NCBI GenBank assembly: GCA_040219085.1
Contig: JAVJTC010000009.1
Coordinates: 62,001 to 126,000, forward strand
Length of the DNA stretch: 64,000 bases
Origin: Acidimicrobiales bacterium
Lineage (GTDB): Bacteria > Actinomycetota > Acidimicrobiia > Acidimicrobiales > JAVJTC01
Reading direction: 5' to 3'
The notes below the pieces were generated by a model. The model was not told the DNA's origin. It saw only the letters and a program-made list of their open reading frames with translations, and made no database searches. Positions 53,764 to 61,819 of the stretch are shown piece after piece. Both the position numbers and the translations under genes were made by a program. Positions within the stretch are counted from its first letter, which is position 1. Each line of letters starts with the position of its first letter.

Positions 53764-54567
53764 TCAGAACTCGCGCCTGCGGGCCCCGGTCGGATCGACC
53801 TCGGTCCGCAGGATGTGCAGCTCCTCGGCACTGGGCTGCGCCGTCACGGCGATCTCGCCGTCGCTCGGCGCTATCTCGAAGCCGGTCGCCTCGCGCACCT
53901 GCTCCTCGGTGACGCCCGGATGCAGACTCTTGATACGCATCCGCTTCGAGTCGGGGTCGAAGTCGAAGACACACATGTTGGTGATGCACAGCTGGGGCCC
54001 GCCGGGCAATCCGAGGCGCTCGCGGTGGTCGCCGCCGTCGCCCCAGCCGATCCCTGACCTGAAGTCGAGGTTCTCGATGAAGGTCCGCGAATCGTGCGTC
54101 GAGCTCCACAGGTAGATACGCGGGATCATGCAGCCGAGATCGGCCATGCCGCCACCACCGGGGAGGCGGACCTTGGGCGAGTCGTAGGGCCCGATCACCG
54201 TGTTGTTGACGTTGCCGTACGCGTCCATCTGGGCACCGCGGAAGGCGAAGGTGTTGTAGCGCCGACCCTGGGACCAGGTCCAGAAGTCGAACGGTGAGTT
54301 CGACAACATCGCGGCGCCACCCCACAGCGAGTCCGACAGAGTCGACTCGCCGATCTCAGCCGGGTCGGCGTCGATCGCGATCGACGATGCCGCCCACACG
54401 AGATCGGGCGCGTGGGTCCGGCGGGCGAGCAGGTAGGCGCACACCGGGATGAACGACACGGCGCCGTTGAAGGCCTTCGTGTCGTTGGGCAGCGCCCGTG
54501 AGAACGTGACGACCATCAACTCGTCGATGGTGCAGTCGTAGCCGGGAACCTCGGGGATCTCGCTCAT
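53764..54567 (-). CDS. CoA-transferase-family beta subunit (IpdB-like)
   Basis: 267 residues of the glutaconate CoA-transferase B/IpdB type. Blocks: D-E-L-M-V-V-T-F-S-R-A-L, F-R-G-A-Q-M-D-A-Y-G-N-V-N-N-T, L-P-G-G-G-G-M-A-D-L-G. The beta chain in this family supplies part of the acyl-CoA site. It overlaps the alpha gene by 4 nt. In the IpdAB subgroup the pair acts as a ring-opening hydrolase of a bicyclic CoA ester, not as a transferase; which applies here is open. Confidence 0.87.
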   Translation of the reverse strand: MSEIPEVPGYDCTIDELMVVTFSRALPNDTKAFNGAVSFIPVCAYLLARRTHAPDLVWAASSIAIDADPAEIGESTLSDSLWGGAAMLSNSPFDFWTWSQGRRYNTFAFRGAQMDAYGNVNNTVIGPYDSPKVRLPGGGGMADLGCMIPRIYLWSSTHDSRTFIENLDFRSGIGWGDGGDHRERLGLPGGPQLCITNMCVFDFDPDSKRMRIKSLHPGVTEEQVREATGFEIAPSDGEIAVTAQPSAEELHILRTEVDPTGARRREF

Positions 54568-55451
54568 GCCCGTCCCTCCGTGGTCAACAGTGCCGCCGCC
54601 CCGCCGTTGGCGTCGAGGAAGTCCTCCCAGGTCTCGGGCGCCACCACCCGCTCAGTGAAGAAGGTCCGGAAAGCTTCAGGATCGCGCGACGCCTTCGAAT
54701 ACTCGAGGAAGAACGGCGAGTGGTGTCTGTAGTCGGGGAAGCAGGAAGTGGGGAACGCTCCGTGGGTGGCCGGGGCCACGGAGTCCACCATGAAGCGGGG
54801 ATAGGTCGTCTTCTCGGGTTCGTCGGTGAAGGTCCGGTGCGGGACCATCCGCTCGACGGTCACGATCGTCCGGTCGGCGGCGTTGACGATCTCGGAGTCC
54901 ATCCATACGAGCTTCGGCAGTACACGGACGTTGCCGGCGTCGTCGGCCTCGTGGGCGTGCACGAGGGAGATGTCGATCGGCAGGCGGGTGCACGCGACGT
55001 AGCGCTCACCGGTCGCCTCGTCGACCTCCTCGCGGATCGTGCCCGACTCGGTGTGGAGCCCCAACACGTCGGTGCCCAGACCCGCCTTCGTGGGCATGAA
55101 CGGCAACTGGTAGGCCTGCGCCTGACAGCGCGCGATCAACAGGTGCTCGGAGTACTCCTCGATGGCGACAGCGCCGGACTGCACCGCATGGCGGAAGTTG
55201 GGTGCGAGGCCGAGCCCTTCGAAGGAGATCAGCCCGCTCAGCACGCGCGACACGCATCCGCCGGCGACCAGCCAGTCCACGGGCATCCCCGCGACGATGG
55301 CGACCAGCGTGAGATCGCGCTTCTCCTGCCGGACGAGTTCGCGCACGAGTGCCATGGGTGCGCTGTTCATCGACAGGCCCCCCAGTGCGATCGTGGCTCC
55401 GTCCGGCACCGACTCGGCTGCTTCAGCCAGGGTGGTTACCTTGGAAGACAT
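54564..55451 (-). CDS. CoA-transferase-family alpha subunit (IpdA-like)
   Basis: 295 residues of the glutaconate CoA-transferase A/IpdA type: P-D-G-A-T-I-A-L-G-G-L-S at the N-terminus, V-L-S-G-L-I-S-F-E-G-L, and R-C-Q-A-Q-A-Y-Q-L-P-F-M-P-T-K-A-G-L-G-T-D. It forms a heterodimer or heterotetramer with the next gene product. It is first in a five-gene minus-strand operon. TAGGCC 6 nt before the ATG may be the -10 of a leaderless promoter, and the palindrome at 55463-55480 abuts it. Confidence 0.88.
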   Translation of the reverse strand: MSSKVTTLAEAAESVPDGATIALGGLSMNSAPMALVRELVRQEKRDLTLVAIVAGMPVDWLVAGGCVSRVLSGLISFEGLGLAPNFRHAVQSGAVAIEEYSEHLLIARCQAQAYQLPFMPTKAGLGTDVLGLHTESGTIREEVDEATGERYVACTRLPIDISLVHAHEADDAGNVRVLPKLVWMDSEIVNAADRTIVTVERMVPHRTFTDEPEKTTYPRFMVDSVAPATHGAFPTSCFPDYRHHSPFFLEYSKASRDPEAFRTFFTERVVAPETWEDFLDANGGAAALLTTEGRA

Positions 55452-55462
55452 GGCCTAGGCCT

Positions 55463-55480
55463 ACCAAACGATCGTTTGTC
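55463..55480. promoter_or_regulatory. Operator-like palindrome ACCAAACGATCGTTTGTC
   Basis: Perfect 14-bp core CAAACGATCGTTTG, 12 bp upstream of the CoA-transferase start and in the intergenic region shared with the divergent conserved gene and selenoprotein. It agrees with the 21085 site at both AAACG/CGTTT half-sites. Confidence 0.7.
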
Positions 55481-55571
55481 GGGGCAACAAGCGCCCGGTA
55501 CGTTCAGGACCGGGAGCGCCTCGCGAGCTGCGATGCGCGGCGGCGTCCACAGCGCACAGGGGGAAGACACC

Positions 55572-56647
55572 GTGGCAGAGCTGACATCGGAGAGGGTCAC
55601 CTTCGACGAGGGCGACATGCTCGAGGAGTTCCACGCCAGGGGATGGACCGACGGCCTCCCGTCGTCGCGCCCACCCCCAAACGCGTCGAGGCGATGCTCT
55701 CGCATGCGGGACTCGACCCCGATGCCGTGATCGGGGTCGTCACGGACCGTGACCGTGAACTCACCGCCGAGAAAGCGGCCATCAACGCCGTGCTGGCGGG
55801 GTGCCTGCCGATCCATTTCCCCGTCGTCGTCGCCGGGCTGTCCGCGATGATGGATGACGCGTTCAACGCCCACACCGTGATGACCTCCACCGGCGGTGCC
55901 GCCCTGTGCCTGGTTGTCTCGGGCCCCGTGGTCGAGGAGATCGGGATCAAGGCCACCCACAACGTGCTCGGCCCCGGCAACCGGGCCAACGCCTCGATCG
56001 GTCGTGCACTGCGCCTCGTCGCACGCAACGTCTTCGGCGCCCGCACGGGTGAGATGGACGCGAGTTCGTTCGGCAACCCCGGCAAGTTCACGATGTGCAT
56101 CGGCGAGAACCAGCCCTACGGAGACTGGGAGCGGCTACGCGACGAGTTCGGCTACGGGTCCGACGAGTCGTGCGTGATGATCATGGGAACCGAGGGCCCC
56201 CACCAGATCGCCAACCTCACCCAGGGCGATCCCGACGCCCTGTGCCGGATGTACGCGGCCGCCATGAACACCCCGTCCACGCTGTGTGCCGGTCGGCGCT
56301 CCCAGGTCATCGTGCTGCTCGGCCCGGAGCACGGGGGCGCGATCGCGGAAGCGGGTTGGAGCCGTCAGAAGGTCCGCGAGACGGTCGCGCACCACGCCCG
56401 CCTCTCAGCGGAGCAACTCGAGGCCGCCGGCATCAAGGTCGACACCTCCAGTTCCATCCCGATGGTTCCCGACGACGACGGGCTGTTCCCCCGGGTCGGA
56501 AGCCCCGATGACATCTTCCTGGTGACCGCGGGGGGCCACGGCGCCGGCTGGTCGGCCTACATCCCCGCCTGGGCACCACCCAACAACTCGGCCGCGGCCC
56601 ATCGCCGCGTCATGCCACCCGGGCAGGGTCTTCCGGTCGTCGGCTAG
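55572..56647 (+). pseudogene. Conserved protein paired with UGSC-type selenoproteins; one-base frameshift near 55660
   Basis: The start is GTG with AGGGGGA upstream; frame 1 gives M-A-E-L-T-S-E-R-V through G-W-T-D-G-L-P. The natural continuation V-V-A-P-T-P-K-R-V-E-A-M-L is found in the -1 frame and stays open to the TAG at 56645. Adding one C to the CCC run at 55658-55660 restores a single 358-residue protein. The family (T-D-G-L-P-V-V-P-P-T-P-like) has no function known to me but is recalled next to UGSC proteins. No slippery heptamer is visible, so a true mutation or an assembly error is likelier than programmed shifting. Confidence 0.78.
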
Positions 56648-56690: not shown

Positions 56691-57227
56691 ATGAGCACCA
56701 TCACCGTGTTGTCACCGGAGTACGAGACGGTCACGACGTCCGTCTCGATGGCTCCGCGCCGCCGTCCAGCCGAGGGCGAAGAGTGGACGATCACACTCAT
56801 CGACAACGGCAAGTCGAACGCGAAGACCATCTTGACGATGCTCGCCGACCGCCTGACCGAGCGGCTGCCGATCACCCGGGTGGACATCCACTCCAAGCCC
56901 GCGGCGGGCAAGCCGATCGACCGCGACACGGCCGAGATGTTCGCGGCCCGTTCCCACCTGGTGATCTCCGGGGTGGGTGACTGAGGCGCCTGCACCGCGT
57001 GCAGTTTGCACGACGCCGTCCAGATCGAAGCCCTGGGAATCCCCGCCGCCCTGATCATCACTGAGCCGTTCATTCCGGTCGTGGCGTCTTTCGCCCCGAC
57101 CCTCGGTATGGAGTCCTACCCGACCAACGTGTTGCCCCACCCGGTGGGGACGCTCGACGACGATGCCCTCCAGAAGTTGGTCGAGGGCATCGTGGATCAG
57201 GTGGAACAGAACCTCATCAGCACCTGA
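56691..57227 (+). CDS. Probable selenoprotein of the UGSC family (TGA at 56982-56984 read as selenocysteine)
   Basis: 178 residues when the in-frame TGA is read as Sec98. The N-terminal half (S-T-I-T-V-L-S-P, then T-I-T-L-I-D-N-G-K-S-N-A) and C-terminal half (H-D-A-V-Q-I-E-A-L-G-I-P, then E-P-F-I-P-V, ending at TGA 57225) are in the same frame and belong to one fold. They join at G-V-G-D-U-G-A-C-T-A-C-S, where UGSC proteins have G-D-U-G-S-C-T-S-C-S. Stopping at TGA would give a 97-residue stub lacking the redox centre. Sec98, Cys101 and Cys104 suggest redox or reductive chemistry. A SECIS-like hairpin follows directly. AGGGGGT serves as ribosome binding site. Confidence 0.88.
56982..57017 (+). 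promoter_or_regulatory. SECIS-like element (UGA plus hairpin)
   Basis: Starting at the TGA, GGCG (56985-56988) can pair with CGCC (57014-57017), and above it CGUGCA (56998-57003) pairs perfectly with UGCACG (57007-57012) around a GUU loop. The loop G is 20 nt after the UGA, close to the spacing recalled for E. coli fdhF, where GGUC sits on a GCA/UGC stem. A competing stem CUGCAC/GUGCAG (56990-57004) is possible. Confidence 0.7.
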
Positions 57228-60607: not shown

Positions 60608-61819
60608 TCAGCTACTGAAGCAGGCGGCCTCAACGGCCGCCGCAGTAGACTCGGCGGTCGGCACCCAAGGGCTCGCTGCATCGAGGTTGTCCTCGGTGAT
60701 GAGGACGAGTGGCGGCGAGCAGAGGACCTGATCGGGTTCCACCCCATTGCGGACGTAGTCGACGAGGCGGACCAGAGCCATCTGGGCTTCCTGCGCCGGG
60801 GACCAACCAACGGTGGCGGCGATCTGACCGGACTCGACCGCCGCGAGACCCTCAGGCGAGCCGTTCATCGAGACCACAGTGATCTGGTCGCTCAGCCCTG
60901 CGGCCTCGATCGCCTGGATCGCCCCGATGGCCATGTCCTCGTTGTTGACCCAGACACCGACCAGGTCCGGATTCGCCGTGATGATGTCCTCCATGACCGT
61001 GACAGCCTCGGCTCGACTCCAGTTCGCACTGATCTCAGCGACGATCTCGAGGTCGGAGTTGGAGGCGACGCCTTCCTGCCACCCGGCCGTATAACCCTCG
61101 ACATCGCCTCGGCCCAGTGCGCCCTGGATCATGGCGACCTCTCCGGACTCGATGTTGTCCGCCATCCAGGTGCCGGCGATTCGCCCGACATCCTCGACGC
61201 CGGCCTGAACGAAGACGACTCCCTGATCTTCGAGCTCGGGCGCGTACCCGTAGAGAACTGCAGTCGGCACACCGGCATCATTGGCAGCGTTCAGCGTCGC
61301 TTCCTCGGAGGCCCGGGTCACCGAGAAGACCACGAGACCGTCGATATCCTGCGTCAGCGCATCCTCCACGTTGGCGATTTCGGTCTCCGCGTCCAAGTCG
61401 CTGTTCAAGACGATGAGTTCGACACCCAGTTCATCCGCGAGGAGCTCTGTTCCGTCGACGCCGCTCTGGTAGTAGTCGAACGATCCTGTCTGGATGTATG
61501 CGATTTTCAGCGGGTCCGCTGTCGCACCATCGTCACCCGACGACCCGTCATCGGACGCAGCACCATCATCACCCGACGACCCGTCATCGGACGCCGCACC
61601 ATCATCACCCGACGACCCGTCATCGGACGCCGCACCATCGTCACCCGACGACCCGTCATCGGACGCAGCACCATCATCACCCGACGACCCGTCATCGGAC
61701 GCCGCACCATCGTCGCTGGATGCAGTGTCGTCGTCATCCCCACAGGCCGCTGCCAGCATGGCGAACATGACAACGATCCCGATTAGGATCATTATTGTTG
61801 GGTTCTTTCTATTTTTCAT
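60608..61819 (-). CDS. Sugar-type ABC importer substrate-binding lipoprotein
   Basis: 403-residue lipoprotein of the ribose-binding (periplasmic binding protein 4) class. Signal peptide with lipobox L-A-A-A-C; linker of five 12-residue repeats (D-D-G-A-A-S-D-D-G-S-S-G); receptor domain from L-K-I-A-Y-I-Q-T-G to A-A-C-F-S-S. Binding-site features include I-D-G-L-V-V-F-S-V and N-N-E-D-M-A-I-G-A. It is last in the order ATPase, permease, binding protein. The region just upstream (61780-61870) is noticeably AT-rich, unlike the surroundings. Confidence 0.92.
   Translation of the reverse strand: MKNRKNPTIMILIGIVVMFAMLAAACGDDDDTASSDDGAASDDGSSGDDGAASDDGSSGDDGAASDDGSSGDDGAASDDGSSGDDGAASDDGSSGDDGATADPLKIAYIQTGSFDYYQSGVDGTELLADELGVELIVLNSDLDAETEIANVEDALTQDIDGLVVFSVTRASEEATLNAANDAGVPTAVLYGYAPELEDQGVVFVQAGVEDVGRIAGTWMADNIESGEVAMIQGALGRGDVEGYTAGWQEGVASNSDLEIVAEISANWSRAEAVTVMEDIITANPDLVGVWVNNEDMAIGAIQAIEAAGLSDQITVVSMNGSPEGLAAVESGQIAATVGWSPAQEAQMALVRLVDYVRNGVEPDQVLCSPPLVLITEDNLDAASPWVPTAESTAAAVEAACFSS
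61525..61704. repeat. 36-bp tandem repeat, five units, inside the binding-protein gene
   Basis: Five contiguous 36-bp units (starting 61525, 61561, 61597, 61633, 61669) differ at only a few positions and encode the 12-residue acidic linker repeat. The near identity at DNA level, silent sites included, implies recent expansion by slippage. Copy number may vary between strains. Confidence 0.92.

Follow-up and report, generated by a model that had tools for sequence, protein, structure and literature searches.

A UGSC-family selenoprotein gene and its conserved upstream partner gene in Acidimicrobiales

Within the 64,000-nucleotide stretch of Acidimicrobiales DNA analysed here (the window), the forward-strand frame at positions 56691–57227 is, judged by sequence comparison, a true selenoprotein gene of the known UGSC family, and it carries the motif of a subfamily of its own. 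Its product would have 178 residues including selenocysteine (Sec), which is near certain to occupy residue 98, and the family match, the orthologues and the alignment described below all support this assignment. It is also very probable that two things hold jointly, namely that UGA 98 is recoded to Sec and that the gene is functionally linked to a partner gene lying directly upstream. While the UGSC family itself is already known, the obligate partner and the relation to glycine reductase protein B (GrdB) would be new to a specialist.

The gene starts at an ATG (56691) preceded by a GGGGG-rich ribosome-binding stretch and ends at a TGA stop (57225–57227), and the sole interruption of the frame is the TGA of codon 98 (56982–56984, forward strand), exactly as described in an earlier reading made from the letters alone (the sequence-only reading). 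The same reading had correctly placed this TGA at the centre of the conserved motif GDUGACTACS, which holds the tetrapeptide U98-G-A-C101, and it had proposed that the two halves form a single protein. Comparison of the read-through product with the Pfam UGSC family (PF24696) gave 147.5 bits, above the gathering score of 25 bits for the whole domain, over residues 6–175 and profile positions 2–170 of 172; since this match spans the TGA, both halves do belong to one protein. As had been foreseen, a standard gene call reports a 97-residue stub (56691–56984). The NCBIfam equivalog model NF041046 (UGSC_fam) scored 122 bits, 3 below its curated cut-off of 125, so that the equivalog name is not assigned automatically, and the PF24696 membership stands. 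The half after the TGA has diverged no more at nonsynonymous sites (pN 0.29) than the half before it (pN 0.33), a comparison that is coarse because synonymous sites are near saturation. This divergence, the 35 orthologous loci with the same TGA and the hairpin after it, both described below, place the read-through frame far beyond chance. A search of viral contigs found no relative of the locus, and no Rfam family was detected within the window at the gathering threshold.

UGSC genes occur in 150 of 298 genomes of the same order, nearly always with exactly one in-frame TGA. Among the 48 read in detail, the Sec position is encoded by TGA in 38, by TGC or TGT in 10 and by nothing else, so that residue 98 of the aligned relatives is either U or C and the earlier picture of a family with both Sec and Cys forms proved right; none of the relatives examined has a real stop at this point. 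In an alignment of 58 UGSC rows, residue 98 (C/U), G99, C101, D108 and G116 are invariant. The window protein shares with the described family (PF24696, NF041046; PMC2398784) its length, the whole-domain match, the Sec/Cys site, a downstream SECIS element and a UxxC motif with Sec or Cys in first place, the last being a recorded family feature (PMC2398784 Table 2). It differs in having UGAC-TAC rather than UGSC-[TS]SC as its motif, and in its identity of at most about 40% to the other UGSC types sampled. The signature given for the family in the sequence-only reading, G-D-U-G-S-C-T-S-C-S, exists as one variant, but most members in the sampled order read [GA]D-U/C-G-S-C-[ST]-x-x-S. The accompanying observation that Ser has become Ala twice was accurate, and the double-Ala form turned out to be a distinct subfamily.

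An alignment of seven diverse UGSC members was too variable for a contig scan, and the subfamily was therefore sought with a DNA pattern for GDUGAC[TS]AC across 84,980 species genomes. This returned 37 matches, of which 35 are true orthologues with TGA in the same codon and both halves kept; the other two (L075 and L086) are chance matches with no UGSC frame around them. The orthologous loci are mostly titled Acidimicrobiia or Acidimicrobiales, Candidatus Microthrix being among them. Two records titled Bifidobacterium breve (L079) and Planctomycetaceae (L104) hold a locus of Acidimicrobiia type and are probably mislabelled metagenome-assembled genomes. The window and its 35 orthologues thus carry UGAC, a substitution within the family, in place of the literal UGSC tetrapeptide, and because all 35 loci share the double Ala it is a stable mark, which by these comparisons defines an Acidimicrobiia subfamily. 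The source genome also encodes a second UGSC paralogue (L020, G000:C38:51950-52447) of the ADUGSCTSCS type on another contig, with a TGA, a SECIS hairpin and a partner of its own.

A bacterial SECIS-type hairpin lies inside the reading frame at 56998–57012 (forward strand), where a 6-bp stem (CGTGCA/TGCACG) is formed by 56998–57003 with 57007–57012 around a GTT loop. It begins 13 nt past the TGA, and its loop, GUU in the RNA, is GUN across the set; a small apical loop with a G in a hairpin just after the UGA is a feature of bacterial SECIS elements (PMC1088965), and both are seen here. Every one of the 28 distinct orthologous sequences forms the complete six-pair stem, whereas 1000 redraws of synonymous codons produced it in a mean of 4.5% and a maximum of 21% of sequences. 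Full pairing was also found in 97% of 33 other Sec-UGSC genes and in none of ten Cys forms. Moreover, across 17 diverse Sec genes, compensatory changes have occurred at four of the six pairs with 100% of cells paired, and the covariation score of 0.471 was reached by none of 500 shuffles and by no slid version. Folded by itself, the window hairpin shows no unusual stability (z about 0.2–0.4), and 4.4% of synonymous versions would form it by chance, so that the case for the hairpin rests on the set of relatives.

The genes needed for Sec insertion are present in the source genome (3.77 Mb in 45 contigs, 96% complete). The search for selA, selB, selC and selD proposed in the sequence-only reading recovered all four: a tRNA-Sec with anticodon TCA (64.9 bits), selA (382.8 bits) adjoined by selB (283.8 bits), and selD (341.5 bits). 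The RF01852 model used for tRNA-Sec also matches ordinary tRNAs, one tRNA-Ser and two tRNA-Gly scoring above its cut-off, and the true tRNA-Sec was told apart from these with ARAGORN. The selD gene (L018, G000:C17) is a selenoprotein gene as well, with an in-frame TGA in GUACK. Over the 298 genomes, selA accompanies UGSC in 138 of 150 positive genomes and occurs in 41 of 148 negative ones (Fisher p 2.8e-32), and the 12 exceptions are mostly accounted for. Five of them (G053, G154, G179, G245 and G254) have only a Cys-form UGSC and no tRNA-Sec; G241, G260, G062 and G196 have a TGA-containing UGSC plus tRNA-Sec; G001 and G169, also with TGA, are assemblies 83–84% complete in more than 500 contigs; and G018 has tRNA-Sec and a weak, partial UGSC match in which codon 98 was unread. 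The loci of G241 and G260 (L021 and L053), from one genus, combine a TGA-containing UGSC gene, the hairpin and tRNA-Sec with the absence of a partner and of any TIGR00474 selA match; a divergent selA or missing contigs are possible explanations.

Could the TGA nonetheless be a real stop, arising from a sequencing error or marking a pseudogene, with the downstream frame a mere relic? The neighbouring partner frame is broken in the assembly, and regional error or decay is thereby conceivable. The probability of this reading is nonetheless very slight, as the 35 orthologous loci and almost every UGSC gene of the order share the TGA, the half downstream of this codon is conserved, a covarying hairpin follows it, and the genome has the Sec machinery. 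UGA is read as Trp in some lineages, and codon 98 might by a change of code or by generic read-through specify Trp or some other residue; such a reading is barely conceivable, given that the homologues without TGA all have Cys at this residue, that the gene's own terminator is TGA, and that Sec machinery and SECIS hairpin are both at hand.

The partner gene (55572–56647, forward strand, start GTG 55572) belongs to an uncharacterised family and lies directly upstream of UGSC in the same direction. In the assembly its frame is broken near 55656–55661, after the first 30 codons, through either an assembly error or decay; in the relatives it is intact in one frame. It adjoins UGSC in 34 of the 35 orthologous loci (downstream in one of them), the last being cut off by the end of the sequence, and in 42 of the 48 loci read in detail, across all subfamilies, with two of the remaining six ending at a contig edge. 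When profiles of both families were searched in the genomes, 146 contained both, four UGSC only, two the partner only and 146 neither (p 9e-78). This near-identical phylogenetic profile, along with the side-by-side arrangement in the main subfamilies, shows that partner and UGSC belong together functionally. The partner family has no sequence match in Pfam, NCBIfam or the PDB and no similarity to the GrdE/PrdA models or to any solved fold, and hhalign of the partner against GrdB returned nothing. Its structure model has a pLDDT of 81, and the fold candidates suggested by Foldseek/VIA (class I fumarase, encapsulin and Toblerone-fold enzymes) were set aside as too weak, with a best Z of 6.4. An apparent partner-UGSC fusion in three loci was rejected on account of a stop codon between the two; a fusion of UGSC to a domain named Unknown_1 has been recorded by Zhang and Gladyshev (PMC2398784). 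The L079 partner is longer by about 80 residues at its C-terminus, and this added segment contains a CAEC motif.

Profile comparison reveals a distant homology between UGSC and the Sec domain at the C-terminus of protein B of the glycine, sarcosine and betaine reductases. At E ≤ 1, the glycine reductase protein B model TIGR01917 matches 42 of 58 UGSC members (best 1.5e-6), the sarcosine reductase model 33 of 58 (best 6e-6) and the general protein B model TIGR01918 22 of 58 (best 5.7e-7). The window protein itself scores 17.3 and 12.5 bits with TIGR01917 and TIGR01918, below the curated cut-offs. Nine GrdB-type genes with TGA were found in the same order, and hhalign of UGSC against eight GrdB-type proteins of the order placed Sec98 on the GrdB Sec (E 1.4e-5, probability 80%), the similarity being weak and confined to the C-terminal half. 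Shared with GrdB/GrdF/GrdH (TIGR01917, TIGR01918, NF040794, NF040795) are U-x5-C, a Glu and Gly-Ile-Pro in register, a C-terminal P-x-G stretch, and the alignment of Sec with Sec. Unlike these proteins of about 430 residues, UGSC members have 170–180 residues (178 in the window) and lack the N-terminal part, possess UxxC, score far below the family cut-offs and have another partner protein. D-proline reductase PrdB is likewise a short Sec protein with UxxC, and its model TIGR04483 weakly matches 5 of 58 UGSC members, but the genes beside UGSC include no pyruvoyl partner like PrdA. AlphaFold2 gave a confident model for the window protein (pLDDT 95.3), in which strand and helix alternate in five units and the third helix begins at U98. 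The structures most like it are alpha/beta domains of the flavodoxin, receiver and similar kinds. Among the structural matches listed, none with a thioredoxin fold was conspicuous, where absence does not exclude one. The predicted fold is flavodoxin/receiver-like, and its strand-helix alternation speaks against a thioredoxin-like topology.

On the other side of the partner, and divergent from it, lies a reverse-strand operon with genes for CoA-transferase subunits A (54564–55451, glutaconate CoA-transferase/IpdA-like) and B (53764–54567, glutaconate CoA-transferase/IpdB-like), as well as for a luciferase-like oxidoreductase, a short-chain dehydrogenase/reductase (SDR) and an enoyl-CoA hydratase. 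Both CoA-transferase subunits are similar to glutaconate CoA-transferase and to the mycobacterial IpdAB-type entries 6co6/6con. The intergenic region (55452–55571), presumably shared by the two transcription units, contains at 55465–55478 a perfect 14-bp palindrome, CAAACGATCGTTTG, of which no other perfect copy occurs in the window; ACCAACCGGTTGGT stands at the equivalent site in L078 and L092. Possibly, CAAACGATCGTTTG is a TetR-type operator. Elsewhere in the window, positions 60608–61819 (reverse strand) encode a protein of the periplasmic sugar-binding type (Peripla_BP_4), whose N-terminal part carries a long repeat made of SSGDDGAASDDG units.

These neighbours bear on what the pair may do. 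One might read partner and UGSC as specific to the degradation of CoA esters by the divergent genes, in line with the shared promoter region and its palindrome and with the CoA-transferase pair, which stands beside the partner not only in the window but also in 8 of 35 orthologous loci (61–82% identity); in addition, a close SDR occurs in three loci, and FMN-dehydrogenase and ketopantoate-reductase-like genes in three. Such neighbours are missing from most orthologous loci in the DNA available, while the partner is kept nearly everywhere, and a dedicated CoA-ester role for the pair is rather unlikely. The tie to CoA-ester catabolism drawn in the sequence-only reading is thus plausible for this lineage and does not extend to the family in general. 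It is less probable still, and distinctly unlikely, that UGSC is a thiol/selenol oxidoreductase of thioredoxin fold engaged in general redox defence. Standing at the N-terminus of a helix, its UxxC is similar to the CxxC of redox sites, and a likely Trx-like fold was proposed for UGSC in the 2008 Global Ocean Sampling paper (PMC2398784), but the fivefold strand-helix alternation of the AlphaFold2 model departs from the thioredoxin order, and the earlier fold is not supported by that model. The homology to GrdB and a dependence on the partner that is unusually strict for a general redox protein argue in the same direction.

It is tempting, if tentative, to suggest instead that the pair is a previously undescribed reductase or lyase carrying selenium chemistry of the GrdB/PrdB type outside Stickland fermentation, in actinobacteria, the pyruvoyl subunit being replaced by a partner whose fold is unrecognised. 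By analogy, UGSC and its partner could conceivably be the two subunits of a selenoenzyme operating in the manner of D-proline reductase or glycine reductase, a proposal we would put at somewhat less than probable. The template would be the chemistry of PrdB, since UGSC has a Sec, an invariant C101 in UxxC and a homologous domain. According to the mechanism put forward for PrdB, its Sec attacks the alpha carbon of a substrate held by the pyruvoyl subunit, whereupon a Cys of PrdB opens the selenoether and the resulting selenide-sulphide is re-reduced (PMC3091704). In UGSC, by the sequence evidence above, UGA 98 is decoded as Sec by the tRNA-Sec, SelA, SelB and SelD of the genome under the direction of the SECIS-type hairpin. 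With the PrdB chemistry transferred to the pair, Sec98, at the helix N-terminus of a flavodoxin-like domain, would be the nucleophile and Cys101 of the UxxC motif the resolving thiol, and a cellular thiol system would re-reduce the oxidised selenenyl-sulfide. Binding and activation of the substrate would fall to the partner, which would stand in for the pyruvoyl subunit (PrdA/GrdE). In the lineage of the window, this substrate may be one of the intermediates formed when CoA esters or organic acids are broken down.

With 255 sequences, UGSC is among the most frequent selenoprotein families of the Global Ocean Sampling data (PMC2398784 Table 2), and natural Cys versions occur in lineages without Sec machinery. 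For a common selenoprotein family whose function has stayed unassigned since 2008, the partner gene offers a concrete handle. Together with the kinship to the Sec domain of glycine reductase, the revised predicted fold and the Cys versions, this obligate partner makes the function of UGSC testable.
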